Assembly (NCBI RefSeq): GCF_026343955.1
Contig: NZ_JAPKNI010000010.1
Coordinates: 1-64,000 of the forward strand
DNA length: 64,000 nucleotides
Reading direction: 5' to 3'
Source of the DNA: Kaistia defluvii
Lineage (GTDB): Bacteria; Pseudomonadota; Alphaproteobacteria; Rhizobiales; Kaistiaceae
Numbering within the stretch: the first letter of the stretch is position 1; the number at the start of each line of letters is the position of its first letter. Of this stretch, positions 9,968-37,005 are shown one piece after another. Made by a program: the position numbers and the translations under genes. Below the pieces are notes generated by a model. That model searched no databases. It was not told where the DNA came from and was given only the letters and a program-made list of their open reading frames with translations.

Positions 9968-9972
9968 GTCCG

Positions 9973-10824
9973 TCAAGCCCGCTCGCGATGATCCGTGGAT
10001 CTTCCCTTCGCAATACGCCCCAGGGCAGGCGCCGCCGCAAGAGCGATTCGCCGTAGCGCGCTTTCGGTCGCAGCATCGATGCGCGCACGGAACGGGCCTG
10101 CGACCAGGACACGATGCAGCCCGAGCATGACCACCAGCGTGATCGCCCATGCAATCAGCACGTCGGAAAGGAAATGGCCGCCAAAGGCGATGCGGTTCAG
10201 CGACAGGGCGAAGGCGAGCGCGCCGATGGTTCCGGCAAGCGCCGGCCGGTAGCGCGGCGGCGCCAGCATGGCGAGGCCGATGAGCCACATGGCCGAGGCC
10301 GCCTCGCCGGACACGAAGGAACAATTGGACAGGCAGGCGCCGCCGATCTTCCAGGCGGGTTCGAACGGCGCGGCGCCGCCGAACAGATCCACCTGGATCG
10401 GCCGCGGCCGGCCCCAGAAGCTCTTGAGCACGCCATTGACGATCAGGCCGGGCCCGAGCGCCAGCGTCGCGAACAGGAACCAGACATGGCTGGCGCGGAT
10501 CGGCATGGGGCGCAGCGGGCGCGCCAGCTTCGCGCCGAGGCTCGCGAGCAGGATGAGGCAGACCAGCACGACCAGATCCTTGCCGAGCAGGCGCAAGGTC
10601 ACGAGCCCGGGAAGCCGCGATGCGGGAAAGGCGCCATCGAGATGGAACAGCGCGGCGAAGCGGAGGTCGAGGCCGGGAAAGGCCATGAAGAGCAGCGAGA
10701 TCGCCGCGAGGCCGGCCAGCGCCAGAGAAAGCGGCCTCCCCGAAAGCGGGTTTGCGGACCGACGGGCGGGAGCCGCGCCGTAACTCCCTGCGCTATCGCG
10801 TGAAGCGATGTCCCGCTCTGCCAT
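9973..10824 (-). CDS. PAP2-superfamily membrane phosphatase (LpxE/LpxF-like)
   Basis: The 283-residue protein has about six membrane helices. It carries the three PAP2 signature segments: KSFWGRPRP, CSFVSGEAASA and NRIAFGGHFLSDV. The third holds the catalytic histidine. The second has SGE where generic PAP2 enzymes have SGH, a variant seen in lipid A phosphatase-like alphaproteobacterial proteins. The ATG at 10824 (MAERD) was preferred over one 42 codons upstream. Together with the downstream GT39 enzyme it probably dephosphorylates an undecaprenyl or lipid A substrate so that it can be modified. The substrate is inferred only from family and neighbourhood. Confidence 0.82.
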   Translation of the reverse strand: MAERDIASRDSAGSYGAAPARRSANPLSGRPLSLALAGLAAISLLFMAFPGLDLRFAALFHLDGAFPASRLPGLVTLRLLGKDLVVLVCLILLASLGAKLARPLRPMPIRASHVWFLFATLALGPGLIVNGVLKSFWGRPRPIQVDLFGGAAPFEPAWKIGGACLSNCSFVSGEAASAMWLIGLAMLAPPRYRPALAGTIGALAFALSLNRIAFGGHFLSDVLIAWAITLVVMLGLHRVLVAGPFRARIDAATESALRRIALAAAPALGRIAKGRSTDHRERA

Positions 10825-21720: not shown

Positions 21721-23448
21721 CTATCCGCGCACTCGCAGATTTAGTGACTTTCGAGCCTCTCGAATATCGATCTTGGCGCGATAGCCATGTTTCTCCAACA
21801 GGTAAAGGAGATTTGCGCCGGTGAAGAGAGTGATCGGCTTTCCAGACGCAAAGGAGTGGGCGTCTGCTCCATAGTCAGCAGTCGTTATGAGGATACCCCT
21901 TGATGCCCCCTCGTGCTGCATTGTGCCATACAGATCTCTTACAGAATTGACACCGACGGTTCTAGTGTATCGCTTGGCCTGAATCACAATCTTTCCGCCC
22001 GTGATCGGGTCTGGATCGAAAGCGACAGCATCGACACCACCGTCGCTGCTGGCTTGGGTTATCTTCACCTCTCCACCCCTTGTCGCGAATTCTTTCTCGA
22101 ATAGCTCACGAACGAGATGTTCAAAGTCCTCCCAATCCATCGACGCCAGATTGGTCGCATCGGTTAAACTATCGGCGGTTTCGCGGGCGGGGACAAACCG
22201 GCGGTCCTCCTTATTGAGTTCCATGACGGGAGGAATCGGCGCAAGTGCCGAGAGGGTTGAGGCGGATACCCCCTTTAGGCTCTTGAAACAGGCCTTTGGA
22301 TCTACGCGGCGAAGATCGATCATCTCGAAATCGCTACGTTTTACCAGAACAGACATGATGCAGCTCGTAGTGTCACGGCCAGTCGTACGATCCACGTAAT
22401 TTGCGTAGCCGTTGAAGAGAACCTTTTCGATATTTCGACATTCGTCGGCCTCCAGTACTTCGTGAATCGTTCTGAGACAGATTTGGTAGCATGTCATATC
22501 GAAATTAGACTTCTGTTCTCGCTCGGAAATGAACGATTCCTTTATTTCTCCGGTGGCTGGAACAAATCGGACGGTCTTCAGCTTAGGCATATCGTCGGGA
22601 GAGGGTAGCCCATACGCGATAAGCAGGGTCCTATCATCAGAGGCGTAGTCAACCTCCAGCGATTTTTCGAAAAGATCACCGTAATTAGACCTTTCGAGGA
22701 CGAGACTGGCATGTTCGATGATGGACTGGGGTTCGGCAGTATATACGCCTCGGGCGAGAGCGTCGATTTTTGCGTTTCTTTCGGTTTGCTCGGCCAGGAA
22801 TGCGCTCTTCCGTGCGGCAAAATCGTTCTCAAATGCCGTCTTGCGGGCCTCCCACAGGAGCATCTGCTGCTTGAAACTAGCTTCGGCTTTGTAGCTCTGA
22901 TCCTGCCAAGTGTTCACAGCGTCTGAGTAAGTGTGCCGCGCTTCCTCAAGCTTTCGGTTCTTCCGCCCTAGAATGTAGTCCCAGATCGTCAGTGTCGGCG
23001 GGGAGAAATCAGGCTTTGGGACATTCTGGATTTGGGGCTTCTGCTCTCGGAAACGGTTCGCCTCGGGAAAGGGCCTCTTGTCTTTGAGCGCCTCCCAGTC
23101 GACTCTATCATCGACTGAAAGCGTGTGAGCGAGGATGCCTGCCAGGGCTTCAAGCCGTGCTGAAGCTTCGAGATTCCTTTGTTCAGCAGTATCCTTTCCG
23201 GCGATGACCGCAGTTTTTTTGCGATATTCTTCTAGTCTTTTATCCCAGTTTGCCATGAGCGCATCGACCTTGCCTTGTAGAAGATAAAGCTCTGGTGCAC
23301 TGAGTTCTTTGTGTAGAGATAGTTCTTTGTGCCAAAAATCTATGAAATATCGAAGGACTCTCGTTCCATCGACGCTATATTTTGCTTGAAGCTTTCCGAT
23401 CGAAATAGATGGAAGACTTGTTGACTTGATTTCGATCTCGTCGTGCAT
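21721..23448 (-). CDS. Mrr-like restriction endonuclease domain protein
   Basis: The 575-residue protein ends in an Mrr-type PD-(D/E)xK nuclease domain (about 439-560). It starts WEDFEHLVRELFEKEF, has SSDGGVD with the catalytic Asp near 473, and IQAKRY with the Q-x-K active site at 490-492. The N-terminal 430 residues are not recognised; about 150-235 are charged and likely coiled coil, with a KLEEARHTYSDAV segment. Mrr enzymes cut foreign or modified DNA. No methyltransferase or partner is adjacent. Base composition is distinctly AT-richer than the surroundings, indicating horizontal acquisition. A GGGGGGGCAGGG stretch precedes the ATG. Confidence 0.78.
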   Translation of the reverse strand: MHDEIEIKSTSLPSISIGKLQAKYSVDGTRVLRYFIDFWHKELSLHKELSAPELYLLQGKVDALMANWDKRLEEYRKKTAVIAGKDTAEQRNLEASARLEALAGILAHTLSVDDRVDWEALKDKRPFPEANRFREQKPQIQNVPKPDFSPPTLTIWDYILGRKNRKLEEARHTYSDAVNTWQDQSYKAEASFKQQMLLWEARKTAFENDFAARKSAFLAEQTERNAKIDALARGVYTAEPQSIIEHASLVLERSNYGDLFEKSLEVDYASDDRTLLIAYGLPSPDDMPKLKTVRFVPATGEIKESFISEREQKSNFDMTCYQICLRTIHEVLEADECRNIEKVLFNGYANYVDRTTGRDTTSCIMSVLVKRSDFEMIDLRRVDPKACFKSLKGVSASTLSALAPIPPVMELNKEDRRFVPARETADSLTDATNLASMDWEDFEHLVRELFEKEFATRGGEVKITQASSDGGVDAVAFDPDPITGGKIVIQAKRYTRTVGVNSVRDLYGTMQHEGASRGILITTADYGADAHSFASGKPITLFTGANLLYLLEKHGYRAKIDIREARKSLNLRVRG

Positions 23449-23597: not shown

Positions 23598-25271
23598 TCA
23601 ACCCCCCCGCCGCACCACCTTCTCCGATGGCACGTCGAAGCGGCGGATGCCTTTGCGATCCGCCTCGTCGAGGGCGTCCTCGTAGCCGGCGTCGGCATAG
23701 CGCATCACGCCCAGCGAGGTGTCGTTGGTGAGCGCGCGGGCCAGGCGCTCGCCGGCGGCGGGCGTGCCGTCGGCGACCAGCGTCACGCCAGCCGAGGTCA
23801 TGTAGCCGGCATAGCCGCCGCCGCCCGAATGCACCGTGACGAGATCGGCGCCGGAGGCCGAGAGCGTCATCGCGTCGAGCAAGGGCCAGTCGGCGATCGC
23901 ATCCGACCCGTCGCGAAGATTTTCCGTCATGATGTTGGGATGCGCCATCGCCCCGGCATCGAGGTGATCGCGCGAAAAGGCGATCGGGCCGGAGAGCGCG
24001 CCGGCCGCCACCAGGTCGTTGACGGCGAGCGCCAGTTCGGTGCGCGCGCCATGGCCGAGCCAGGCAATCCGCGCCGGCAGGCCCTCGAACGGCACGTTTT
24101 CGCGCGCGAGGCGTATCCAGTTGGTGACGATGGCGTTGTCGGGAAAGCGCTCCAGCACCAGGTCGTCGATGCGGCGGATGTCGTCGGGATCGTTGGAAAG
24201 CGCCATCCAGCGGAACGGACCGATGGCGCGGGCGAAGAGCGGCCGCAGATAGGCCTCGGTGAAGATCGGGATGTCGAACGCGTTTTCGACGCCCGCTTCC
24301 CGCGCCTGGGTGCGGATCAGGTTGCCATTGTCGAACACCACCGAGCCATGCTTCTGGAAATCGAGCATGGCGCGGACATGCGGGACGATGGACGCGCGGG
24401 AGAGCGCCATGAGTCTTGTCGGATCGCTCTGACGCAATGCCCGCACTTCGGCGAGCGAAATCCCGGCCGGCACATAGCCATAGACGAGGTCATGCGCCGA
24501 GGTCTGGTCGGTGACGATATCGGGCACGATGCCGCGCCGAAAGATTTCGGGATAGATCTCGGCCGCATTGCCGACCAGCGCGATGGAGAGCGGCTCGCGG
24601 TGGTGGCGGGCATGCGCGATGCGCTGCAGCGCCGTGTCGAGGTCGGGCGCGATCTCGTCGACATAGCCGATCGCCTTGCGCTTCTCCGCCCGTTCGGGGT
24701 CGACGTCGACGGTGAGGATGGCGGCGTTGGCCATGCGACCGGCCAAGGGCTGCGAGCCGCCCATGCCGCCGAGGCCGGCGGTCAGGATGAAGCGTCCGGC
24801 GAGATCGCCGCCGAAATGCTTCTCGGCGATGCGCATGAAGATCTCGTAGGTGCCCTGGATGACGCCCTGGCTGCCGATATATTGCCAGGCGCCGGCTGTC
24901 AGCCCGCCCCAGCAGATCAGGCCCTTGCGCTCCAGCTCGTAGAAATACTCCGCCTTGGCCCATTGGCCGACGATGTTGCAATTGGCCATGATGACGATCG
25001 GCGCCTGCACCTGCGTCTTCAGGATGCCGATCGGCTTGCCGGACTGGACGATCAGCGTCTCGTCCTCGTCCATCGTCTTCAGTGCCCGGACGATGGCGTC
25101 ATGCGCCGCCCAGTTGCGCGCCGCCTTGCCGAGCGCCGCATAGACGATCAGGCTGTCCGGGTCCTCGCCGACCGCGAGCACGTTTTCGAGCAGCCGCAGC
25201 AGGCCCTCCTGCCGCCAGCCCTTGCAGCGAAGCATCGTTCCCGAGGTGACGGGATAGCGGGGATTGACCAT
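23598..25271 (-). CDS. Urocanase-family hydratase, probable thiourocanate hydratase
   Basis: The 557-residue protein aligns with urocanase throughout: VYAALGKAARNW, QSGKPIGILKT, TAGAWQYIGSQGVIQGTYE, LTAGLGGMGGSQPLAG and RDGSDAIADWPLLDA. The urocanase signature FQGLPARICWxGxGER, however, reads FEGLPARIAWLGHGAR (395-410), replacing its conserved Cys with Ala. SLHHGGGVGMGFSQHSG has become TVHSGGGGYAGYMTSAG (about 478-494). These changes in the substrate and NAD region, plus the neighbours, suggest water addition to thiourocanate during ergothioneine degradation rather than histidine use. Its ATG overlaps the DUF917 stop (TAATG). It is the last gene of the cluster. Confidence 0.8.
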   Translation of the reverse strand: MVNPRYPVTSGTMLRCKGWRQEGLLRLLENVLAVGEDPDSLIVYAALGKAARNWAAHDAIVRALKTMDEDETLIVQSGKPIGILKTQVQAPIVIMANCNIVGQWAKAEYFYELERKGLICWGGLTAGAWQYIGSQGVIQGTYEIFMRIAEKHFGGDLAGRFILTAGLGGMGGSQPLAGRMANAAILTVDVDPERAEKRKAIGYVDEIAPDLDTALQRIAHARHHREPLSIALVGNAAEIYPEIFRRGIVPDIVTDQTSAHDLVYGYVPAGISLAEVRALRQSDPTRLMALSRASIVPHVRAMLDFQKHGSVVFDNGNLIRTQAREAGVENAFDIPIFTEAYLRPLFARAIGPFRWMALSNDPDDIRRIDDLVLERFPDNAIVTNWIRLARENVPFEGLPARIAWLGHGARTELALAVNDLVAAGALSGPIAFSRDHLDAGAMAHPNIMTENLRDGSDAIADWPLLDAMTLSASGADLVTVHSGGGGYAGYMTSAGVTLVADGTPAAGERLARALTNDTSLGVMRYADAGYEDALDEADRKGIRRFDVPSEKVVRRGG

Positions 25272-26407
25272 TATTTCTTCTTCCGCTTCCTCTTCTTCGG
25301 TTCGTCCGCGAACACATAGCGCGCGAGCTCGATGCCCATCGCGGCTTCCACCGGCGGATAGACGGAGGGGTCGAGCACGCCGGCCGAAAGCGGGAGGATC
25401 GCCCCGGGCACATGCAGCACATGCACCGTCATGCCGACATGCAATTGCCCGACCGAGAGCGGCTCGCCATCCTTGTCGAGCGTGGTGATGACATCCGGGA
25501 AGGTGGCGAGCCGGGTGCCGCCGGCATCGTCGATCGCCATATATTCGTTCATCACATGCAGCGTCGTCGCCTTGTCGCCGGCGCCGATCACCACCGTGCC
25601 GATGTCGAAGGCGGCGTTGGTGTAGACGACGTCCTTGCGGGCGATCCGGCCGGAAACCGCGATATGGCCGCCCGTCACCTTGCAGATCGCGTCGATGACG
25701 GCGGTGCCGCTGCCCTTGCCGGCCCCCTTGCCGTCGGCCGCGACGATCGCCTCGCCCAGCGCCAGCGCCATCGAGATGCCGCCGAGCGCCGCGTTTTTCC
25801 GCACATAGCTGGCGCGGACCGGATTGCGCGCCGAGGCGATGAAGCCGCCCGACATGTCGGAGGCCGTGCGCAGGATCGGTGACACCTTGGCGGTCGCGCC
25901 GCGCACCACCAGCTCGATATAGCGGTTGTCGGCCCGGTTGCCGCCGACTGCCGTCTGGATCATCGGCTCGGGCGAGGCGGCGAGGCCGATCGAGCCCATG
26001 TCGCCGGTCGGATGCGCGCGGATATCGCCGACGGCGTCGAGCACCTTGGTGCCGAGAATGGCGGAGGGCAGCCAGCCGTTCAGCGTCGAGGAGCGGCCGT
26101 TCTGGCCCACCATCAGCGCCGCCAGCGGCTCGCCCAGCGCTTCCTGCAGCAGCCGCACGGCGTGGACATAGTCGACGCCCTGCATCTCCCATTGGGTGGT
26201 GCCGGCCGGCGCGCCGATCGCGGCGGCGGTCGCGACCCAGTCATTCTTGTCGAGTTCGTCGACGCTGACCAGTTCCGGCTTGCCGATGCGCACGGCCGCG
26301 AGCCCCAGCATGCGGCCATGGTCGGCCCAGCCGCCGCCCCCGGCGGCATAGACCGAGCCGCCGCGCACGGCGGGTTCGACGTCTTTCTCGGTCAGGATGC
26401 GGCCCAT
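25271..26407 (-). CDS. DUF917 protein, candidate thiohydantoin desulfurase
   Basis: The 378-residue protein matches the DUF917 family: AAGGGGWADHGRMLG near the N-terminus, VGQNGRSSTLNGWLPSA, AHPTGDMGSIGL and TFPDVITTLD. It ends in a lysine/arginine-rich tail. The family often accompanies hydantoinase genes. In ergothioneine degradation an otherwise unrelated enzyme removes sulfur from the thiohydantoin intermediate. Here DUF917 is the only enzyme of the cluster not otherwise accounted for, so that role is assigned by elimination. The stop overlaps the next ATG as TAATG, so it is translationally coupled to the urocanase homologue. Confidence 0.72.
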   Translation of the reverse strand: MGRILTEKDVEPAVRGGSVYAAGGGGWADHGRMLGLAAVRIGKPELVSVDELDKNDWVATAAAIGAPAGTTQWEMQGVDYVHAVRLLQEALGEPLAALMVGQNGRSSTLNGWLPSAILGTKVLDAVGDIRAHPTGDMGSIGLAASPEPMIQTAVGGNRADNRYIELVVRGATAKVSPILRTASDMSGGFIASARNPVRASYVRKNAALGGISMALALGEAIVAADGKGAGKGSGTAVIDAICKVTGGHIAVSGRIARKDVVYTNAAFDIGTVVIGAGDKATTLHVMNEYMAIDDAGGTRLATFPDVITTLDKDGEPLSVGQLHVGMTVHVLHVPGAILPLSAGVLDPSVYPPVEAAMGIELARYVFADEPKKRKRKKK

Positions 26408-26418
26408 GCGGTCCTCCT

Positions 26419-27678
26419 TCAGGCGAGCAGGGTATCGAGGCGCAGCACCGCGTCGAGCAGCACCGCCGCCCCGGCGGCGATCTCGCCCGGCTCCGACCAT
26501 TCCTCCGGCGTATGGCTCCGGCCATCCTTGCAGGGAACGAAGATCATAGCCGAGGGGGCGATGCGCGAGAACCAGGCCATGTCGTGGCCGGCGCCCGAGG
26601 CCATGCGGCGCGGCGCCAGCCCCAGCGCCTCGGTCGATTGCTCCAGCACGTCGAGCAGCAACGGATCGGAAAGCGCCGGGCGGTTGTCCGAAATGGCGCG
26701 GAATTCGGTGATCCGCGCGCCCGTGCCGGCCATGGCGCGCAGGATCAGGGGCCGCAATTCGGCGACGAAGCCTTCCATGAAGCTGCGTTCCTCGGCCCGC
26801 GCATCGACCAGCAGCGTCACCCGGCTGGGCACGACATTGGCGGCGTTGGGCTCGACGCGGAATTCGCCGACCGTGGCGACGAAATGCCCGTGCCCCGCCT
26901 TGGCGCGGCGGCTCGCATCCTTGGCGATGACCGACACGGCGGCGGCGGCGCCGGCCAGCGCGTCCTGGCGCAGGTGCATCGGCGTCGTGCCGGCATGGTC
27001 GGCGCGGCCCTCGATGACGATCTCGAGCCGCGTGATGCCGGAGATCGCCGTGACGATGCCGATGTCGCGGCGCTCGTCCTGCAGGATTGGCCCCTGCTCG
27101 ATATGCAGTTCGAGATAGGCGGCGATGTCGTCGCGCCGCGCCTCGGCGAGATAGGCAACGTCGCCGCCCATGCGGTCGATCGCGTCGCGCAGCACCTCCC
27201 CGGTATCGGGCTCCGGCCGTTCCAGTTGCTCGGGCGTCAGCAGCCCGGCGATGGCGCGGCTGCCGATGCAGGAGAGGCCGAAGATCGAGACCTCTTCCGC
27301 CAGGCAGTCGATCACCTCGAACGGGTGGTCGAGCTCGGCGCCGTCCTGCTGCAGGCTGCGGGCGACCGCGATGCCGGCCATGACGCCGGCGGTGCCGTCG
27401 AAGCGGCCGCCATCCGGCACGGTGTCGCTGTGCGAGCCGATGACGATGGTCTTGTGGTCGGGAAAGCGGCCCTCGCGCCGGCCGATCAGGTTGCCGGCCG
27501 CGTCGAGGCGGATGGCGAGCCCGGCCTCCTGCATGCGCCGGGCGACGAAGGCGCGGCCTTCGAGAAACATCGGCGTGAAGGCGCGACGGGTCCAGGGCCG
27601 CCCGGGATCGGTCCGTTCGGCGAGCGCCATCAGATCGTCCCAGAGCCGGGTCTCGTCGATCGGCAGGTTGTTGCGCAT
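26419..27678 (-). CDS. M20-family N-carbamoyl-L-amino-acid hydrolase, probable N-carbamoyl-glutamate hydrolase
   Basis: The 419-residue protein is a dinuclear metal amidohydrolase of the allantoate amidohydrolase/carbamoylase group. Visible ligands are His83 and Asp94 in GSHSDTVPDGGRFDG, Glu128-Glu129 in CLAEEVSIFG, His192 in LELHIEQGP and the histidine in SGAGHDMAWF. It should hydrolyse an N-carbamoyl amino acid to the amino acid, CO2 and ammonia. In this cluster the expected substrate is N-carbamoyl-L-glutamate formed by the adjacent cyclic amidohydrolase, six bases upstream. Allantoate is an alternative, but no ureide pathway genes are nearby. Confidence 0.85.
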   Translation of the reverse strand: MRNNLPIDETRLWDDLMALAERTDPGRPWTRRAFTPMFLEGRAFVARRMQEAGLAIRLDAAGNLIGRREGRFPDHKTIVIGSHSDTVPDGGRFDGTAGVMAGIAVARSLQQDGAELDHPFEVIDCLAEEVSIFGLSCIGSRAIAGLLTPEQLERPEPDTGEVLRDAIDRMGGDVAYLAEARRDDIAAYLELHIEQGPILQDERRDIGIVTAISGITRLEIVIEGRADHAGTTPMHLRQDALAGAAAAVSVIAKDASRRAKAGHGHFVATVGEFRVEPNAANVVPSRVTLLVDARAEERSFMEGFVAELRPLILRAMAGTGARITEFRAISDNRPALSDPLLLDVLEQSTEALGLAPRRMASGAGHDMAWFSRIAPSAMIFVPCKDGRSHTPEEWSEPGEIAAGAAVLLDAVLRLDTLLA

Positions 27679-27684
27679 GGAGAA

Positions 27685-29058
27685 TCAGGTCTCGGTCGGC
27701 AGGGTGGGGGGCGGACGCACGAACCGGCCCGAACCAGGTTCGGCCAGCACGGAACGCCCGTCAAAGACCTGGATTCCGCGCAGGAACGTGCCGCTCACCC
27801 GCCAGGGGAGCGTCATGCCGTGATACGGACTCCAGCCCACCACATTATGCCCACTCGCCGCCGCATCATAGAGCGCCGGTTCATGCGTCAGCACGGCGAT
27901 GTCGGCATCCTTCCCGATCTCCAGCGCGCCCTTCTGGTCGGCGATGCGGAAATGCCGGGCCGGGTTGCGGGCCATCAGCCGCGCCGCCCAGGTGAGCGGG
28001 ATGCCGCGTTCGATCGCGCCCTTGACGAAGAGCGGCAGCAGGACTTCCAGCCCCGGCACGCCGGAGGCGTTGTCCAGCATGGCGGGCTTGGTCTTGCGGT
28101 CCTCCGACCAGGAGACGTGATCGGTCGAAACGAGGTCGACATGGCCGAGGGCCACTTGCCGCCAAAGCGCCTCGACCTCGGCGCGCGGCCGGATCGGAGG
28201 ATTGATCTTGGCCTTGCCGCCGAGCCGGCAGACATCGTGCTCCTCGTCCAGCGTCAGATAGTGGATGCAGACCTCGACGGAGGCGGCATGGCCCTCGGCC
28301 CGGTAGCGCGCCGCGAGCTCCGCCCCGCGCGCCAGCGAGGAATGCACCACATGCGCCGGGCAGCCGGTGAGCGCGCCGGTCTCGAAAATCTCGACATCCG
28401 CGAGGAGTTCGGTGATCGGCGGCCGCGACAGGCCGTGTGCCCGCCAGTCGGTGATCCCTAAGGCGCGCACCCGCGCCATATGCGCGTCGACCGCCTCGTG
28501 GATCTCGTTGTGCACGCCGGCGGTCAGCCCCGTTGGCGCGATCGCGGCGAAGCATTCCGCCAGCAGGGCCGGGGGAATGCGGGGAAACCGCTTGGCATCG
28601 GTGCCGAAGGTGGAGAACTTGAACGCGGCGACGCCGGCCGCCGCCATTTCGCGGATGCGCGCCGTGCCTTCCTCCGGGTCGATCGTGCCATAGAGCGCGA
28701 AATCGACGCGCGCCTGCGGCCCGGCATGGTCGAGCTTCCTTTGCACCGCTTCGGCCGAGCAGACGAGGTTGCCTTCGTCATAGGGCATGTCGACGATGGT
28801 GGTGACGCCGCCGGCCGCGGCCGAGCGGGTCGACCAGATGAAATCCTCCTGGTCCCTCTGGCTCAGCGAATGCACCTGCGCGTCGATGGCGCCCGGAAGG
28901 ATCAGCGCCTTTCCGAGCGCGTGTTTTTCCCGCGCCGAGGGCGCCGCGCCCTGGCCGACCATGGCGATCTTGCCGCCGCGCGCCGCGACGAACCCGCCCT
29001 CGATGACGCGGTCGGCGGTGACGACGGTTCCGGACAGGACGAGATCGAAATCGCTCAT
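27685..29058 (-). CDS. Cyclic amidohydrolase, probable hydantoin-5-propionate hydrolase
   Basis: The 457-residue protein belongs to the dihydropyrimidinase/allantoinase/dihydroorotase superfamily. Metal-site residues can be placed: His63 in GAIDAQVHSL, Lys147 in AAFKFSTFG (the carboxylated lysine), His183 in VHNEIHE, His239 in VVHSSLARG and Asp313 in STDHVSW. The first histidine of the usual H-x-H pair is Gln61. The C-terminal region shows NPARHFRIADQKGALEIGKD, typical of the family. It likely opens hydantoin-5-propionate to N-carbamoyl-glutamate, the substrate of the next enzyme. The ATG at 29058 (MSDFDLVLSG) starts the first beta strand. Confidence 0.82.
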   Translation of the reverse strand: MSDFDLVLSGTVVTADRVIEGGFVAARGGKIAMVGQGAAPSAREKHALGKALILPGAIDAQVHSLSQRDQEDFIWSTRSAAAGGVTTIVDMPYDEGNLVCSAEAVQRKLDHAGPQARVDFALYGTIDPEEGTARIREMAAAGVAAFKFSTFGTDAKRFPRIPPALLAECFAAIAPTGLTAGVHNEIHEAVDAHMARVRALGITDWRAHGLSRPPITELLADVEIFETGALTGCPAHVVHSSLARGAELAARYRAEGHAASVEVCIHYLTLDEEHDVCRLGGKAKINPPIRPRAEVEALWRQVALGHVDLVSTDHVSWSEDRKTKPAMLDNASGVPGLEVLLPLFVKGAIERGIPLTWAARLMARNPARHFRIADQKGALEIGKDADIAVLTHEPALYDAAASGHNVVGWSPYHGMTLPWRVSGTFLRGIQVFDGRSVLAEPGSGRFVRPPPTLPTET

Positions 29059-29263
29059 GGCGTCACCGGCGGTTGTCGGGAAGGGAGATTGCGACTCGCT
29101 GCACCCGCGACGCAGGCTGGTCGCCATGTTGACGGCTTTGCCGACGAAATGGGAAGGCCGATTTGCGTTTGGGCTGCTTGCTCAACATGAGGGCTGCGCG
29201 GTCAGTCAGGTCAATGGTTGGCCCAGCAAGGTTTCCCCCTCCCCAAAGCCGGCAGGCTGGTTT

Positions 29264-29386
29264 TGACCCTCCCTCAAGGGGACGGTTCAGGATGAGCACG
29301 CCGTGCCGGCAAACCTCTGCTGATCGATCCGGGTGGCTCTTAGCCAAATTGCGCTTCGCTTGAACCCTCCCCTTGAGGGAGGGTCG
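29264..29386. repeat. Palindromic repeat, ccctccctcaagggg type
   Basis: Near-perfect 26-base inverted arms (29264-29289 and 29361-29386) share the core ccctccctcaagggg. They lie in the 780-base gap between the hydantoinase gene and the transporter genes. Related ccctc/gaggg sequences continue to about 29510. No gene was recognised in the gap. Confidence 0.65.
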
Positions 29387-29596
29387 AAAGCGCGTGGCGC
29401 TTTCGGGGAGGGGGCTCTTGGCATGCGGGATAGGGAGTTCTGCCGCGCTCGATCTTTGTGAAGAGCGCCGGCCAAAAACCCTCGCCCGCTTGGGAGAGAG
29501 GGTAGGGTGAGAGGCTTTGCTTGCGCTTTCCCTGTTGCGCGCTGGGTGCGTGGTTCGAGACGCCACTGAGTGTCCGGCCCACAATCAAAACTCGCT

Positions 29597-29758
29597 CATC
29601 ATCCTGAGGCGCCCGGCAAAGCCGGGCCTCGAAGGAGGGTCCAGCGAACGCTCTGAATGCAGGTGATTTCGGCGGGGTCGTGACTTGGTTTGCAAGCCGA
29701 AATGCCCACTGGAGCCTCCTTCGAGGCTTCGCTGACGCGAAGCACCTCAGGATGATGG
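29597..29758. repeat. Dispersed palindromic repeat, copy 2
   Basis: The ends catcatcctgagg and cctcaggatgatg and the inner segments cctcgaaggagggt and agcctccttcgagg are the same as in the copy at 18719-18858. The centre differs in length and sequence. This identifies a mobile or amplified intergenic repeat family. Confidence 0.75.
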
Positions 29759-29840
29759 CGGAGCCTCTCAATCGGCTTGGACGCCTGACAGCCGCGCGAG
29801 CGAACCATCCATTCGCTCGACATGCTCGTCGCCAAAGCCC

Positions 29841-30599
29841 TCACCCCGCCACCTCCGCCAGCCGCCCTGTCCGCCTGGCCACCCGGCGCTCAAGGATCGA
29901 CAGCGCGTCATAGATCAGCACCGCCAGCAGCGCGACGATGATGCCGCCCTGCAGGATGAACGAGGTGTTGGAGGTGAGAAGCCCGGCGATGATCACCTCG
30001 CCAAGCCCCTTCGCGGCGACTGTCGAGCCGATCGTCGCCGTGCCCATGTTGATGACGACCGACAGCCGGATGCCGGCGAGGATCACGGGAAGCGCCAAAG
30101 GCAGCTCGACGCGAAACAGCTGCTGCGTCGGGTTGAGGCCCATGCCGCGCGCCGCTTCGACGACATTCGCCGGCACTTCCTTGAGCCCGGTAATGGTGTT
30201 CTCGAAGATCGGCAGCAGGCCGTAGAGCACCAGCGCGATCAGGGTCGGCTTCAGCCCGAAGCCGACCACCGGCACGGCCAGCGCCAGCACCGCGACGGGC
30301 GGGAAGGTCTGGCCGATATTGACCAGGCTGCGCGACAGCGGCAGGAACTCGGCGCCGACCTTGCGCGTCACGAATACGCCCATGACCAGCGCCAGCGCGG
30401 TGCCGATCAGACTGGCGATGGCGACAAGGCCGAGGTGATAGAGCGTCAGGCTGAGCAGGCTGCCCTGATTGTAGATCACCGGCGCGCCGTTTTCGGTGAA
30501 CGGTTTTAAAACCGGCACGAACCAGTCGGGCTTGAGGATGAGCGCCAGCAGTAAGGCCAGCGTCGCCAGCCGGGCGAGGGGTCCGATAATGCGGCTCAC
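29841..30599 (-). CDS. ABC transporter permease, glycine-betaine/choline type (OpuC-like)
   Basis: The 252-residue membrane protein has about six helices. The coupling loop NVVEAARGMGLNPTQQLFRVE is followed by LPLALPVILAGIR, diagnostic of OpuCB/ProW-type permeases. NMGTATIGSTVAAKGLGE is also typical. Its start overlaps the stop of the ATPase gene by 4 bases, so it is the last gene of the transporter operon. Together with the other permease it forms the membrane channel for a quaternary-amine-type substrate; the enzyme neighbours suggest ergothioneine. Confidence 0.88.
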   Translation of the reverse strand: MSRIIGPLARLATLALLLALILKPDWFVPVLKPFTENGAPVIYNQGSLLSLTLYHLGLVAIASLIGTALALVMGVFVTRKVGAEFLPLSRSLVNIGQTFPPVAVLALAVPVVGFGLKPTLIALVLYGLLPIFENTITGLKEVPANVVEAARGMGLNPTQQLFRVELPLALPVILAGIRLSVVINMGTATIGSTVAAKGLGEVIIAGLLTSNTSFILQGGIIVALLAVLIYDALSILERRVARRTGRLAEVAG

Positions 30600-31534
30600 G
30601 CGGCGGCCCCGGCATGGGCGCGCAGCGCCGCGAGCGAGACGCGGCCGACCAGCGTGCCGTCCGCGCTCGCCACCGGCAGCGCGTCGCGCTGGTGCCAGAG
30701 CAGCTCGGACAAGGCATCGCGCAGCGTGGCGGTCGCGGCGATCGGCGGGCCCTCCGCCGTGCCGGGCTCGACGATCGACGAGACGGGCGCGAGCGACAGC
30801 AGCCGGAACGGTCGGTCGACGCCGTTCACCAGCTTTTCGACGAAGCCATGCGCGGGTCGCGCCAGGATTTCCGCCGGCGGCGCATATTGCAGCAGCCGGC
30901 CGCCATCCATGACCGCGATCCTGTGTCCGAGATGGATCGCTTCTTCCATGTCATGCGTCACCAGCACGACGGTGATGCCGAGGCGCTGCTGCACGGCGAG
31001 CAGATCTTCCTGCGCCTTGGCGCGGATGATCGGGTCGAGCGCGCCGAACGGCTCGTCCATCAGCAGCAGGCCTGGCTCGGCCGCCAGCGCCCGGGCGACG
31101 CCGACGCGCTGCTGCTCGCCGCCGGAAAGCTGGTGCGGAAACTTCTGCGCGAACTCTTCCGGCTTCATGCTGAACAGGGTCAGAAGCTCATCGACCCTTT
31201 TGGCGATGCGCGAAGAATCCCAGCCGAGCAACGTCGGCACGGTGGCGATGTTGCGGGCGACGGTCCAGTGCGGGAACAGGCCGTTGCCCTGGATGACATA
31301 GCCGATGCCGCGGCGCAGTACCTCGCCGGAGACGGAGGCCGTGTCCTTGCCGTCGATGCGGATCGTGCCGGCGCTGGGCTCGATCAGCCGGTTGATCATC
31401 CTGAGCGTCGTCGACTTGCCGGAGCCGGAGGTGCCGACGATGACGGTGATGGTGCCGCGCTCGACGGAGAAGGAGACGTCGTCGACGGCGAGCTGGTCGC
31501 CGAAGCGGCGGCTGACATGTTCGAGTTCGATCAA
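30596..31534 (-). CDS. ABC transporter ATPase, glycine-betaine/choline type (OpuCA-like)
   Basis: The 312-residue protein carries Walker A IVGTSGSGKSTTLRMINRL, the Q-loop GYVIQGNGLFPH, the ABC signature HQLSGGEQQRVGVARALA, Walker B LLLMDEPFGALDP and the switch THDMEEA. A CBS-like C-terminal segment (PVASADGTLVGRVSLAAL) is typical of OpuCA/ProV-type ATPases. The only plausible start is TTG at 31534, which overlaps the upstream permease stop as TTGA. Subunits of this type include EgtV, the ATPase of the ergothioneine importer. Confidence 0.9.
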   Translation of the reverse strand: MIELEHVSRRFGDQLAVDDVSFSVERGTITVIVGTSGSGKSTTLRMINRLIEPSAGTIRIDGKDTASVSGEVLRRGIGYVIQGNGLFPHWTVARNIATVPTLLGWDSSRIAKRVDELLTLFSMKPEEFAQKFPHQLSGGEQQRVGVARALAAEPGLLLMDEPFGALDPIIRAKAQEDLLAVQQRLGITVVLVTHDMEEAIHLGHRIAVMDGGRLLQYAPPAEILARPAHGFVEKLVNGVDRPFRLLSLAPVSSIVEPGTAEGPPIAATATLRDALSELLWHQRDALPVASADGTLVGRVSLAALRAHAGAAA

Positions 31535-32715
31535 AGCCGGCGCCTTTCGGAAAGCTCGATGGCCGCATCGAGAAGGATGGCGGCGGTGAAGGCGAGCGCG
31601 ATGGTGGGAACCGCGCCGAGCAGGACGAGGTCGGTGGCGGCCTGGCCGATGCCCTGGAACACGAAGGTGCCGAAGCCGCCGCCGCCGATCAGCGCGGCGA
31701 TGGTGACGAGGCCGATATTCTGCACCAGCACGATGCGGATGCCGGTGAGGATGACCGGCAGCGCCAGCGGCAGCTCGACCTGGAACAGGCGCTGGAATTT
31801 CGTCATGCCCATGCCCTCGGCCGCCTCGACCACCGAGCGGCGCACCTCGCCGAGGCCGGCGACGGTGTTGGCGACGACCGGGAGCAGCGAATAGAGGAAC
31901 AGCGCGATCAGCGCCGGCGCCGTGCCGATGCCGCGAATGCCGAGCGAGGCGGCGAGCGGCGACCAGGCGGCGAGCAGGCCGAGCGGCACGATCATCAGCC
32001 CGTACATCGCCATGGACGGCACGGTCTGGATGACGTTGAGGACCGGCAGTGTGATGCCGCGCAGCGTGGCGTTGCGGTGGCAGGCGATGCCGAGCGGCAG
32101 GCCGATGACGACGGCGGCGGCGAGCGATCCCAGCGCCAGCTCGATGTGCTTGGCCCCCTCGCGCCAGAATTTCTGCGCGTTGGTGGCGTATTCCTTCAGG
32201 ATCGACAGCCCGTCCCAATGGCCGGAGCCGAGGATGAGGGCGACCGCGATGGCGGCCCCCGCCAGCATGGGGAGCCGCGCGAGAGGCCCCAGTTGCAGCT
32301 TGGCGATGGCGTCGGTGGTCAGCACGGCGAAGGCGAAGGCCATCAGCCAGAAGCCGGCGGCGGGCGACACCCGGGCATAGCTGTTGTCGGGTGGCACGAC
32401 CGTCGCCGGAACGATCCCGATCAGCACGGCCAGCAGCAGCAGTGACCCGATGCCCACCGCCAGCCGCAGCAGCGCGCCGGTCCGCAGCACGGCGACGATG
32501 GTGGCGATCGACAGCAGGGCGATGCCGATCGCCGCCCAGAGCGTCGGCAGCGACTGGGCGAGGCTGAGGCCCTGGCCGGAGATCAGGCGGTTGGGTTTCA
32601 GCGTCGCGAAGGACTGCCAGTCCATGCCGACGATCGCGATCACGGCGACGACGATGCCGACGCGGTCGAGGCGCGCGGTCAGGGGCTGGGCTGCGGTCTC
32701 GCTCGCTTCCGTCAC
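31531..32715 (-). CDS. ABC transporter permease with N-terminal membrane extension
   Basis: The protein (394 residues from GTG 32715, or 411 from ATG 32766) has an OpuC-like permease domain in its C-terminal half: SVVEAAEGMGMTKFQRLFQV, LPLALPVILTGIR and LIGGGGFGTFVFQG. The N-terminal ~200 residues add about five further hydrophobic segments not found in minimal OpuC permeases. GAGGGAG precedes the GTG, whereas the ATG has no ribosome site, so the GTG is preferred. It is coupled to the ATPase gene by TTGA. The two dissimilar permeases presumably form a heterodimer. Confidence 0.85.
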   Translation of the reverse strand: MTEASETAAQPLTARLDRVGIVVAVIAIVGMDWQSFATLKPNRLISGQGLSLAQSLPTLWAAIGIALLSIATIVAVLRTGALLRLAVGIGSLLLLAVLIGIVPATVVPPDNSYARVSPAAGFWLMAFAFAVLTTDAIAKLQLGPLARLPMLAGAAIAVALILGSGHWDGLSILKEYATNAQKFWREGAKHIELALGSLAAAVVIGLPLGIACHRNATLRGITLPVLNVIQTVPSMAMYGLMIVPLGLLAAWSPLAASLGIRGIGTAPALIALFLYSLLPVVANTVAGLGEVRRSVVEAAEGMGMTKFQRLFQVELPLALPVILTGIRIVLVQNIGLVTIAALIGGGGFGTFVFQGIGQAATDLVLLGAVPTIALAFTAAILLDAAIELSERRRL

Positions 32716-32812
32716 GCCGGATGGCTCCCTCTCGTTGCGCAAGAGCTTAGGGGTAAATCGGCGCATCGCAAGGTTAACGGGGAGCTAACAGGCCGGCGGC
32801 TGTTAACAGCGG

Positions 32813-32868: not shown

Positions 32869-33780
32869 CTATTTCACGAAGCCCTTCTGGGCCAGATAGG
32901 CCTTGGCGACGTCCTTGGCAGGCTCGCCGCCGACCTGGATGCGGCCGTTCAGTTCCTGCAGGGTCTTGAGATCGAGCGAGGCGAAGACCGGCTTCAGCAC
33001 TTCCTCGATCTTGGGGAACTTCTTGAGCACTTCCTCGCGGATGATCGGCGCCGGGGCATAGACCGGCTGCACGGCCTTGTCGTCGTCGAGCACGACCAGG
33101 CCAGCCGCCTGGATGGCGCCGTCCGTGCCATAGACCATGGCGGCGTTGACGCCGTCGGTCTGTTCGGCCGCCGCCTTGATCGTCGCCGAGGTGTCGCCGC
33201 CGGAGAGAACCAGCAGCTGCTCCGGCTTCAGGGAGAAGCCATAGGCGGTCTGGAAGGCGGGGAGGGCGGCGGCGGAATTGACGAATTCGGCCGAGCCGGC
33301 CAGCTTCACCTTGCCGCCACCGGACACCCACTTGCCGAAATCGCTGAGCGATTTCAGCTTGTTGCCTTCGGCGACGTCGCCGCGAAGGCCGATCGCCCAG
33401 GTGTTGTTGGCGGGCGAGGGCGACAGCCAGACGATCTTGTTGGCGTCATAGTCGAGCGTCTTTGCCGTCTCGAAGCCCTTGGCCGCATCCTTCCAGAGGG
33501 GGGCGTCCGCCTTGTTGAAGAAAAAGGCCGCGTTGCCAGTATATTCCGGATAGATATCGATTTCGCCGGCGGTGATCGCCTTGCGCACCACCGGCGTGCC
33601 GCCGAGCGAGATGCGGTCCTCGACCGTGATGCCGTTCGCCTCGAGCACCTGGGCGATGACGTTGCCGAGCAGCGTGCCTTCGGTATCGATCTTCGACGAA
33701 ACGACGACGTCGGCTGCGTGCGCCCCGCCGATCGAGGCCAGGATCGCGGCCGCTGCCGCGATGGTCTTCAGAGCTTTCAT
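32869..33780 (-). CDS. ABC transporter substrate-binding protein, OpuAC/ProX family
   Basis: The 303-residue protein has a signal peptide (MKALKTIAAAAAILASIGG, cleaved after AHA). The fold begins ADVVVSSKIDTEGTLLGNVI. GEIDIYPEYTGNAAFFF is the conserved signature of quaternary-ammonium-binding proteins such as OpuCC and the EgtU binding domain. It captures substrate in the periplasm for the permease/ATPase genes that follow. The substrate could be betaine, choline or ergothioneine; the adjacent catabolic genes favour ergothioneine. The gene follows the lyase gene after 64 bases. Confidence 0.88.
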   Translation of the reverse strand: MKALKTIAAAAAILASIGGAHAADVVVSSKIDTEGTLLGNVIAQVLEANGITVEDRISLGGTPVVRKAITAGEIDIYPEYTGNAAFFFNKADAPLWKDAAKGFETAKTLDYDANKIVWLSPSPANNTWAIGLRGDVAEGNKLKSLSDFGKWVSGGGKVKLAGSAEFVNSAAALPAFQTAYGFSLKPEQLLVLSGGDTSATIKAAAEQTDGVNAAMVYGTDGAIQAAGLVVLDDDKAVQPVYAPAPIIREEVLKKFPKIEEVLKPVFASLDLKTLQELNGRIQVGGEPAKDVAKAYLAQKGFVK

Positions 33781-33844
33781 GGCGGAAGTTCCTCTACTGT
33801 CGGTGGTCTGGGCGAGCATCGTACTTCTTAGGGTTCCGCGCGCG

Positions 33845-35413
33845 TCAACGCGAGAAAATGAGCTCATCCGTCGTGATGGATTCGTAGAAATTTCTGACTG
33901 TTTCCAAGAGCGCAGGCTGAAAAAGGTTGCGTTCGATGGTCTCGATATCGAGCGAAAGCGCACGATCCTTCTCCAGGAAGGCCACTTCGGAGCGGACGGA
34001 ATCATAGACCATGCCGACCAGCCCGGCCGGCTTCAGCCCCTGCATGTCGAGGCCCTGGGCGGCCAGAAGCGCCTCGATCGCCGTCAGCATCTTCAGCGAG
34101 GCGATCTGCCGGTTGAGGCGTTCGACGACCAGCGGCGCGAACATGGCCTCGTCCTCCATGCCGCCGGCGATCAGCAGCGGCATGGCGGAAACCGGGGCCA
34201 GGTCGGCCATGACGCGGCTGGCGAGGTCGCCCGCCAGCTTGACCAGCGGCCCGAAACCGGTGGCGTCCGTCGTCTCCGAGACGAGATTGGCCGGCAAAAC
34301 GCCGCGCCCGCCATTGGCGATCAGGATGATGCGGTTGAGGATGTTGCGGGCAAGATGCGCCAGGCCCGGCCCGACCGATTGCAGCGTCAGCGCCAGTTCG
34401 AGCGGCAGCGACCCGCCCGAGGTCATCGGGATGCCGTCGATGACGACGGGATTGTCGTCCGGCCGTGCGGTCGCGGCCTCGACGCTGGCGGCCGCGAAGG
34501 CGACGACCCCGGCCGAGGCGCCGAAGATCTGCGCCATCATGCGCAGGCTGAGCGGATCGTGCAGATGGGTGGCCGGCGCCCAGGGAAAGGCATCCGCCAC
34601 CGCCATCAGCACGGTTCCTGCCGCCGCCTCGCGCGGCGAGCCGATGCGCGTTGCCACCCGCCATGGCTCGGGCGAAGCGCGCAGCGCGGCGGCGGCGCTG
34701 GAGCCGGTCGCCATGGCGACGCGGATCAGCTGCGCGGCCTCGATCAGCGTCGCGCCGGCGCTGGCGACCGTCAGCGCGTTGGTGCTGACGGCGGAAAGGG
34801 CGTCCTTGAGCCGGAAGACCAGCGGCGTCAGTCCGGCTTCGCGCAGCGCCTCCTCGGCGGATTTCAGAACGCCGCGATGAAAGACCTGCCCCTCGCCGGC
34901 CAGCGCCGTCGCGACCTGGCTCATCAGTCCGATATCGGCGGCGCCGATCGAGCCGAGCCGGCGCACGACCGGCACGATGTCGGCGTCGAGCGCCGCGACA
35001 TAGGCACGGACGAGTTCCGGGCTGCAGCCGACCATGCCGGAAAGCGCCGTGTTGACGCGGATGGCGATGCCGGCGCGGACGATCTCCGGCGGCAGCGGCT
35101 CGCCGACGCCAAAGTGATGGGCTCGGACCAGATCGGTGCGATCGGCCGAGGCGGCCAGCGGGATCGACCGGTCCTTGATGGCGCCGACGCCCGTCGTCAC
35201 GCCATAGAGCTGGCGCCCGCCCTCGACCGCTCCGCGCACGGCCTCATAGGCGTTCGCGACCTCGACCAGGCGCACTTCGCAGGGCACGGCGTGCAGCAGG
35301 CCGCGGCCGATCAGCGAAAGCGTCGACAGACGCAGCGGGGAGCCATCGAGGATCACGGTTTCGCGCGGCGACGCCGTCCGATCGTCAAGCATAACTTCGA
35401 CAGCAGCTGGCAT
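33845..35413 (-). CDS. Aromatic amino acid lyase homologue, probable ergothionase
   Basis: The 522-residue protein has the histidine ammonia-lyase fold. QLYGVTTGVGA (about 69-79) corresponds to the catalytic-tyrosine motif YGxNTGFG, and RARPDDNPVV-like and SGGSLPLEL blocks lie downstream. The MIO cofactor triad Ala-Ser-Gly in GSVGASGDLAP is missing: the segment reads GSIGAADIGLMSQ (154-166). A deaminating lyase needs MIO, but elimination of trimethylamine from ergothioneine does not. With a urocanase homologue, hydantoinase, carbamoylase and betaine-type importer on the same strand, ergothionase (giving thiourocanate) is the best call. GAAGGA precedes the ATG; it is the first gene of the cluster. 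Confidence 0.82.
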   Translation of the reverse strand: MPAAVEVMLDDRTASPRETVILDGSPLRLSTLSLIGRGLLHAVPCEVRLVEVANAYEAVRGAVEGGRQLYGVTTGVGAIKDRSIPLAASADRTDLVRAHHFGVGEPLPPEIVRAGIAIRVNTALSGMVGCSPELVRAYVAALDADIVPVVRRLGSIGAADIGLMSQVATALAGEGQVFHRGVLKSAEEALREAGLTPLVFRLKDALSAVSTNALTVASAGATLIEAAQLIRVAMATGSSAAAALRASPEPWRVATRIGSPREAAAGTVLMAVADAFPWAPATHLHDPLSLRMMAQIFGASAGVVAFAAASVEAATARPDDNPVVIDGIPMTSGGSLPLELALTLQSVGPGLAHLARNILNRIILIANGGRGVLPANLVSETTDATGFGPLVKLAGDLASRVMADLAPVSAMPLLIAGGMEDEAMFAPLVVERLNRQIASLKMLTAIEALLAAQGLDMQGLKPAGLVGMVYDSVRSEVAFLEKDRALSLDIETIERNLFQPALLETVRNFYESITTDELIFSR

Positions 35414-35604: not shown

Positions 35605-37005
35605 ATGATTGAAGTGAGCGACAGCCTAATCGACCGTTCCGACGTCGCCATTCCGATTCATGCGGTGGATCCAGAAGGTCTGGAGTCCCTGCTCGCATCC
35701 ATCGGAGATGTCGAGGCTGCCTGGGCGCGCTCGACCGGCTTCGATGCATCGGCCGGCGCCGTCACGATCATAGCCGACACGCGCGGCGTCATTGGCCGCG
35801 TGCTGTTCGGGCTGGGGCGGGCCGACAGCCGCCGCGCCGCGCCGCTGATCACCGGAAAGCTGCCGATGATCCTGCCGCAGGGCGACTATCACTTCGTTAC
35901 CGATCTGCCGGACCCGATGCTGGGCGCAGTCGGCTGGGCGCTCGGCAATTACCGTTTCGAGCGCTACAAGAGCAATCCTTCGCCGATCCCGCGGCTGGTC
36001 GTGCCGAAGGGCGCCGACCCGACGCGGGCCCGGAGCATGGCGCGGGCCATCGCCATGGTGCGCGATCTCATCAACACGCCGGCCAGCGATCTCGGCCCGG
36101 CCGAGCTTTCCGGCGCGATCCACGACCTCGGCGCGCGCTTCGGCGCCAAGGTCAGCGAAATCGTCGGCTCGGATCTGCTTCCCGCCAATCTGCCGATGAT
36201 CCACGCCGTCGGCCGCGCCGCCGACCTGGATCGCGAGCCGCGCCTGGTCGATCTGGTCTGGGGCGATCCCTCGCATCCGAAGGTGACGCTGGTCGGCAAG
36301 GGCGTCACCTTCGATACCGGCGGGCTCGACATCAAGCCGTCCAGCGGCATGCTGCTGATGAAGAAGGACATGGGCGGCGCCGCCAACACGATGGGGCTGG
36401 CGCACATGATCATGGAGGCGAAGCTGCCCGTGCGGCTGCGTCTTCTGGTTCCCACCGTCGAAAACGCCATCTCCGGGCCCGCCTTCCGGCCCGGCGACGT
36501 GTTGCGCTCGCGCGGCGGCGTCACGGTCGAGATCGGCAATACCGACGCCGAGGGCCGCCTGATCCTCGCCGATGCGCTGGCCGTCGCCGCCGAGGAGAAT
36601 CCGGCCCTGCTGATCGACCTGGCGACATTGACGGGGGCGGCGCGCGTCGCGCTCGGCCCCGAACTGCCGGCTGTCTTCACCCATGACGACGCGCTCGCGG
36701 CGGACCTCGCGCGCCATGCCGCGCTGAGCCTGGATCCGCTCTGGCGGCTGCCGCTCTGGGCGCCCTACGAATCCATGATCGACTCCAAGATCGCCGACAT
36801 CAACAATGCCGGCGCCGGCGGCTTCGCCGGGGCGATCACGGCGGCACTTTTCCTCGATCGTTTCGTTCCCAAGTCGATCCCCTGGATCCATGGCGACATC
36901 TATGCCTGGAACCCCTCGGGCAAGCCCGGCAAGCCGGAAGGCGGCGAGGCACAGGCCATCCGTGCGCTGTTCTCGCTGATCCAGGAACGTTTCGCCGCCG
37001 AATAG
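35605..37005 (+). CDS. M17-family leucyl aminopeptidase-like protein
   Basis: The 466-residue cytosolic metallopeptidase shows the M17 catalytic blocks: LVGKGVTFDTGGLDIKPS, MLLMKKDMGGAAN, NTDAEGRLILADAL (family signature, about residue 312) and LIDLATLTGAA. The N-terminal domain is short and divergent from E. coli PepA, as in PepB-like members. The ATG at 35605 is used; a GTG at 35614 has a similarly good AAGGA ribosome site. It is divergent from the ergothionase gene. Whether it shares control with that cluster is unclear. Confidence 0.88.
   Translation: MIEVSDSLIDRSDVAIPIHAVDPEGLESLLASIGDVEAAWARSTGFDASAGAVTIIADTRGVIGRVLFGLGRADSRRAAPLITGKLPMILPQGDYHFVTDLPDPMLGAVGWALGNYRFERYKSNPSPIPRLVVPKGADPTRARSMARAIAMVRDLINTPASDLGPAELSGAIHDLGARFGAKVSEIVGSDLLPANLPMIHAVGRAADLDREPRLVDLVWGDPSHPKVTLVGKGVTFDTGGLDIKPSSGMLLMKKDMGGAANTMGLAHMIMEAKLPVRLRLLVPTVENAISGPAFRPGDVLRSRGGVTVEIGNTDAEGRLILADALAVAAEENPALLIDLATLTGAARVALGPELPAVFTHDDALAADLARHAALSLDPLWRLPLWAPYESMIDSKIADINNAGAGGFAGAITAALFLDRFVPKSIPWIHGDIYAWNPSGKPGKPEGGEAQAIRALFSLIQERFAAE

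Follow-up and report, generated by a model that had tools for sequence, protein, structure and literature searches.

A predicted MIO-free ergothionase of a divergent lineage within a probable ergothioneine-degradation gene cluster of Kaistia defluvii

The window analysed here, a stretch of 64,000 nucleotides of Kaistia defluvii (contig NZ_JAPKNI010000010.1, positions 1 to 64,000), carries a HAL/PAL-family gene whose product, judged from its sequence and setting, is very probably an ergothionase (ErtA), encoded in a complete cluster for ergothioneine degradation. We base this reading on homology, a one-residue gap in the MIO loop, conserved residues and gene neighbourhood, all documented below, and from them we infer the substrate, catalysis and transport. 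The chemistry, the loss of MIO and the pathway are already known, and only the divergent lineage and its setting are new here, without a claim that they are absent from the literature. Ergothioneine is a dietary antioxidant. Ergothionase converts ergothioneine to trimethylamine and thiourocanic acid without MIO, and sources identified so far, according to one recent paper, are Treponema denticola, Burkholderia, Cupriavidus and Agrobacterium radiobacter (PMC13405746).

The lyase gene and its cluster

The lyase is encoded on the minus strand by an open reading frame with an ATG start, and the motif AAGGA ends four bases ahead of this ATG. PF00221 covers residues 51-474 at 246.8 bits (cut-off 27.3), which places a full-length protein in the HAL/PAL superfamily by sequence and bears out the family assignment of the earlier note. 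HutH models fall short of their cut-offs: the HutH equivalog model TIGR01225 scores 191.3 bits, well under its cut-off of 539.15, and NF006871 scores 211.8 bits, under its cut-off of 524. Given these scores and the absent MIO triad, a histidine ammonia-lyase identity was set aside. A pseudogene reading was set aside as well. An ordinary HutH, with the loop GSVGASGDLA, is encoded on another contig of the same genome. In phmmer searches, the T. denticola ergothionase chain 6s7j aligns with residues 21-495 (E 4.2e-38), and 7tqr, a 'probable histidine ammonia-lyase' chain (1.8e-39), ranks slightly ahead of it. The lyase is 26.8% identical to 6s7j versus 25.3% to HutH of its own genome, and the eight families matched in the profile search include no NCBIfam ergothionase model. 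A structure prediction, run on the window protein with full-length L033, L034 and L035 (partial L036 was left out), gave a mean pLDDT of 36.1, too low to use.

The minus-strand order is lyase, OsmF-type binding protein, permease, ATPase, permease, ErtD, ErtE, ErtC and ErtB. The features are as follows.

33845..35413, minus strand: predicted ErtA, an MIO-free ergothionase (ergothioneine trimethylamine-lyase) of the HAL/PAL family, 522 amino acids (PF00221, 6s7j match, ert neighbours)
34916..34954, minus strand: MIO loop of the lyase, residues 154-166, GSIGAADIGLMSQ, with the triad one residue short (alignments)
32869..33780, minus strand: OsmF-type substrate-binding protein of the glycine-betaine family (NF049931, 509.9 bits, cut-off 400; PF04069); searched as 32869-33792, with the ATG at 33780 picked as start
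31531..32766, minus strand: ABC transporter permease 1 (PF00528)
30596..31534, minus strand: ABC transporter ATP-binding protein (PF00005); start codon uncertain, reading frame open to 32218
29841..30599, minus strand: ABC transporter permease 2 (PF00528)
27685..29058, minus strand: ErtD, hydantoin-5-propionate amidohydrolase (NF058538, 762.3 bits, cut-off 600); reading frame open to 29127, 29058 picked as start
26419..27678, minus strand: ErtE, N-carbamyl-L-glutamate amidohydrolase (NF058540, 589.9 bits, cut-off 520)
25271..26407, minus strand: ErtC, thiohydantoin desulfurase (NF058529, 575.3 bits, cut-off 440); reading frame open to 26500, 26407 picked as start
23598..25271, minus strand: ErtB, thiourocanate hydratase (NF058530, 1040 bits, cut-off 930); reading frame open to 26192, 25271 picked as start
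35605..37005, plus strand: leucyl aminopeptidase-family gene (PF00883), diverging from the cluster and thus a boundary outside the pathway

We take NF058530, NF058529, NF058538 and NF058540 to be models for the pathway described by Beliaeva et al. 2021. ErtE also exceeds the generic Zn-hydrolase model NF009531 (587.1 vs 486), and ErtB passes the broader hutU model (704.6 vs 375). An S-methyl pathway was set aside because both ErtB (758.4 vs 880) and ErtC (277.3 vs 450) miss the cut-offs of the S-methyl models. In the transporter, the ProV family model TIGR01186 scores 285.1 bits on the ATP-binding protein, under its cut-off of 326.6; the binding protein matches the OsmF-type chains 5teu (E 2.3e-140) and 4nd9 (E 1e-136), versus a best E of 1e-28 to EgtUC chains. 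The EgtD model TIGR03438 has no match in the genome, which fits degradation rather than synthesis, and this absence is weak evidence because the search control gave a match, under the cut-off, in only 1 of 14 genomes.

Between ErtD and permease 2, some 780 bases (29059-29840) hold no convincing gene. Measured by match ends, K. granuli has about 70 bases at this position and K. adipata about 500, so something may have been inserted here. An Mrr-type restriction endonuclease domain is encoded just past the ertB end of the cluster, by a gene at 21721-23448 (minus strand).

The shortened loop and the active-site region

The loop of the window lyase is one residue shorter than that of MIO lyases, with GSIGAADI facing GSVGASGDL. 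Alignments differ in whether the gap falls in the Ser or the Gly column, and either placement leaves Ala-Ala in place of Ala-Ser-Gly, with the Asp opposite the one that comes after the triad in MIO lyases. The earlier note had reported a missing MIO triad, read as a change from Ala-Ser-Gly to Ala-Ala-Asp. Its account of residues 154-166 and of the loss itself holds; the one-for-one substitution does not, as the triad is shortened and, in the alignment of GSVG-ASG-DL with GSIG-AA-DI, the Asp is simply the residue that normally comes next. An intact ASG elsewhere, which by the earlier note would count against its claim, was looked for across all 522 residues and is absent. The inability to deaminate histidine that the same note claimed is an inference. 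The loop of 6s7j, SSIGEGDI, has the same one-residue gap. The GSIGAADIGLMSQ loop is conserved in every one of the six full-length Kaistia copies (the own-genome copy and five others, 89-99% identical), which rules out a slip in sequencing or assembly, an explanation we therefore set aside.

Ten residues of the active-site region (Y70, K80, H99, N212, L288, R291, D319, H353, K392 and E420) are identical to those of 6s7j and constant in 21/21 core non-MIO rows, a set that includes 6s7j and six near-identical Kaistia rows. Six of them, K80, N212, L288, D319, H353 and K392, are missing from 22 to 24 of the 24 MIO rows: K80 and N212 are each present in two (L055, L084), D319, H353 and K392 in none. 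Every MIO row has Y70, R291 and E420, and 23 of the 24 have H99. The Leu288 column, which we take to be the Tyr280 position in HAL numbering, holds Leu in 21/21 core non-MIO rows and Tyr in 24/24 distinct MIO rows. Partial rows L073 and L052 were swapped for L078 and L077 in this alignment, and the non-MIO rows L014 and L085 were excluded from the counts and displayed separately. In L014, the gap, Leu288, H353 and K392 are present and K80, H99, N212 and D319 are absent; L085 combines a three-residue gap and Leu288 with the absence of K80, N212, D319, H353 and K392. The latter is a HAL paralogue (G100:C1:350607-351977) whose loop, GSVGY---LS, lacks three residues relative to MIO lyases.

The gap and Leu288 are also present in all of six additional rows of the T. 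denticola type. K392 is missing in two of them (L104, L109) and H353 in another two (L106, L108); neither residue is universal among T. denticola-type lyases. For annotation, a possible aid in telling ergothionases from histidine ammonia-lyases is the loop gap combined with K80, L288 and, in most cases, H353 and K392.

Two lineages and their distribution

A single 100/99 branch separates MIO from non-MIO rows (24 and 17, respectively), and both the window and T. denticola enzymes fall on the non-MIO side. The columns of the loop, the S-x-N motif and Leu288 were removed before this tree was built, and those of K80, D319, H353 and K392 were retained. The single split holds with L085 excluded: a first tree (42 rows, L085 included) needed two changes of MIO label because L085 falls among MIO rows, and the later two trees omit it. 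All three trees omit L083, which repeats the L055 gene, and the near-duplicates L004, L005, L007, L011 and L043, and the two-lineage tree further omits eight MIO rows (L015, L021, L022, L023, L025, L026, L027 and L029).

The non-MIO rows include two separate groups with 100/99 support each, one of 14 rows for the window type and one of 8 for the T. denticola type. Identity between the window protein and those eight rows runs from 26.8 to 31.1%. Both lineages are found in ert clusters and have the loop gap and several residues in common; in Burkholderia arboris and Paracoccus denitrificans, T. denticola-type lyases belong to ert clusters whose ErtB, ErtC, ErtD and ErtE are over their cut-offs. 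The window protein thus appears to belong to a second ergothionase-like lineage, apart from the Treponema/Burkholderia type, a modestly new finding. A joint group of the window type and the two T. denticola-type rows included in that test, with L014 outside, was not rejected (p-AU 0.144); as the trees are also unrooted and several branches are long, one origin and two origins are both compatible with the data.

Named records yielded four loci with the lyase, at 93% identity in K. terrae, 91% in K. granuli, 89% in K. adipata and, as a partial match, 90% in a Hyphomicrobiales assembly. The lyase search covered 61 genomes, its own among them, and gave matches at E 1e-20 or better in 28; 11 of these have a match of 47-100% identity and 17 only matches of about 26-31%. 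Among 398 genomes spread across the phylum, 5 have a match at E 1e-60 or better, again counting its own. Searches with ErtB only selected 5/289 genomes of the class (E 1e-250) and 6/398 of the phylum (E 1e-230), 10 distinct genomes with the own genome in both sets. A window-type lyase is present in 8 of these 10 (7/9 without the own genome), always within 10 kb of ErtB.

The two exceptions differ. In G146, the lyase beside ErtC and ErtB retains the MIO triad; at this locus (G146:C3, about 77083-83000; L055, L075), ErtC and ErtB are over their cut-offs, the ASG triad of the HAL is intact, and a neighbouring gene resembling sulfide:quinone reductase scores under the cut-off of the corresponding model. 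Seven urocanase-family matches occur in the genome, and the locus may degrade unmethylated thiohistidine instead of ergothioneine. G610 encodes ErtD, ErtC and ErtB, and its sole lyase at E 1e-15 is of the MIO type and lies elsewhere. At this locus (L072, G610:C78:109001-129000), neither ErtA nor ErtE occurs in the 20 kb, and an amino-acid-type ABC transporter lies ahead.

Among 14 Kaistia genomes, own included, six have both ErtA and ErtB, seven have neither, and one (G006, a fragmented genome of 720 contigs) has a partial ErtA only. The two genes are on separate contigs in G012, one of the six. In G025, ErtA and ErtB lie about 95 kb apart, and G023, which has ErtA and the transporter, gave no ErtB match at E 1e-100. 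Matches to the lyase occur in 180 records of the plasmid collection. The best three, from Ochrobactrum, Shinella and Rhizobium (44.7-46.5%), all adjoin ErtD, ErtE, ErtC and ErtB, and the remaining 37 of the best 40 reach at most 32.8% identity. A scan of viral contigs with the lyase alignment found no relative.

MIO-less lyases also occur outside ert clusters. Two of the T. denticola type (L106:8908-10596 and L107:12001-13572) lie beside genuine hutU genes, which score 943.5 and 964.8 bits with TIGR01228 and miss the thiourocanate model; these lyases are candidate hercynine lyases. Their nearest tree relatives, L108 and L105, are in ert clusters. Ornithine cyclodeaminase-family genes are found near four of the six such loci examined (L056:376-1452, L068:14759-15763, L106:1-111 and L107:8872-9873), the other two being L104 and L109. 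The L104 lyase (8923-10563, on Sinorhizobium meliloti pSymA) is annotated hutH, has Ala at the K392 position, and lies between LysR-type regulator genes near a gene annotated as dimethylsulfoniopropionate lyase.

A 2026 paper concludes from BLAST with a Burkholderia sequence that ergothionase is not widely distributed, and cautions that divergent homologues are left out of this estimate (PMC13405746). The window lyase represents such a divergent lineage, so searches with a single reference can undercount ergothionases.

Proposed function and comparison with known systems

The earlier note implied that the enzyme resembles the T. denticola ergothionase, a lyase that eliminates a quaternary amine without MIO. 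Similarity to 6s7j, the loop gap and the shared residues argue for this, and the non-MIO placement at 100/99 and the over-cut-off ErtB-ErtE neighbours further back an ergothionase-like reading. The betaine-type ABC transporter, with its OsmF-type binding protein, probably imports ergothioneine. ErtA would then eliminate trimethylamine from the betaine to give thiourocanate, with acid/base residues of the HAL scaffold performing the elimination; as trimethylammonium is already a good leaving group, the MIO electrophile would be unneeded. An MIO-free elimination via acid/base residues is reportedly how the T. denticola enzyme works. The later steps are assigned from the names of the NCBIfam models: ErtB would hydrate thiourocanate, ErtC would take off the sulfur, ErtD would open the hydantoin ring and ErtE would hydrolyse N-carbamoyl-glutamate to glutamate.

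The ErtB and ErtC neighbours also bear on which substrate the lyase takes. A modified ergothioneine, either the sulfonate or an S-methyl form, could be the main substrate and ergothioneine a minor one. The T. denticola ergothionase reportedly accepts ergothioneine sulfonate too, and the window lineage is distinct from that of T. denticola. A catabolic pathway for ergothioneine sulfonate has also been published, which PMC13405746 links to Agrobacterium radiobacter. ErtB and ErtC, however, exceed the cut-offs of the thiourocanate and thiohydantoin models but not those of the S-methyl models, a result that bears on the S-methyl form and not on the sulfonate, and we regard a modified main substrate as unlikely. 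Hercynine (histidine betaine), which would yield urocanate and trimethylamine, is suggested by those T. denticola-type MIO-less lyases that adjoin genuine hutU rather than ertB (L106, L107). The neighbours of the window lyase are instead a thiourocanate hydratase and a thiohydantoin desulfurase, which makes hercynine a very improbable substrate here. A literature search on hercynine in connection with urocanate and trimethylamine found nothing.

Loss of the MIO triad and of the Tyr at the HAL Tyr280 position could also mark an inactive or regulatory HAL paralogue. Against this, the ten active-site-region residues are constant across the 21 core rows and the gene is retained in ert clusters, so that such a paralogue is hardly credible. 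Beyond the ergothionase reading of the window enzyme, the MIO-free HAL/PAL branch might conceivably be a wider set of betaine (trimethylamine) lyases, with at least two ergothionase lineages, hercynine lyases feeding urocanate hydratase, and recurrent switching between ert and hut settings, a scheme we put forward only tentatively.

Compared with the T. denticola ergothionase (6s7j, 6s7q; Maurer et al. 2019), the window lyase is likewise a HAL/PAL-family protein with no MIO triad and a one-residue gap, and shares K80, N212, L288, D319, H353, K392 and E420 (window numbering). It differs in overall sequence, at 26.8% identity, in its separate group within the non-MIO rows and in the loop, which reads A-A-D rather than E-G-D. 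Relative to HutH, the family and overall length are the same, but the window lyase is without the MIO triad and has Leu for the Tyr280 equivalent and S-T-N for the N-G-T motif. The five-step bacterial ergothioneine catabolism attributed to Beliaeva et al. 2021 is matched by ErtB-ErtE, all over their cut-offs in one cluster of the window; in contrast, the lyase matches no NCBIfam ergothionase model, and an OsmF-type ABC transporter lies inside the cluster. The Streptococcus ergothioneine transporter EgtU (PMC9732360) draws on the same quaternary-amine ABC binding-protein family, whereas the window binding protein is far nearer the OsmF-type chains 5teu and 4nd9.
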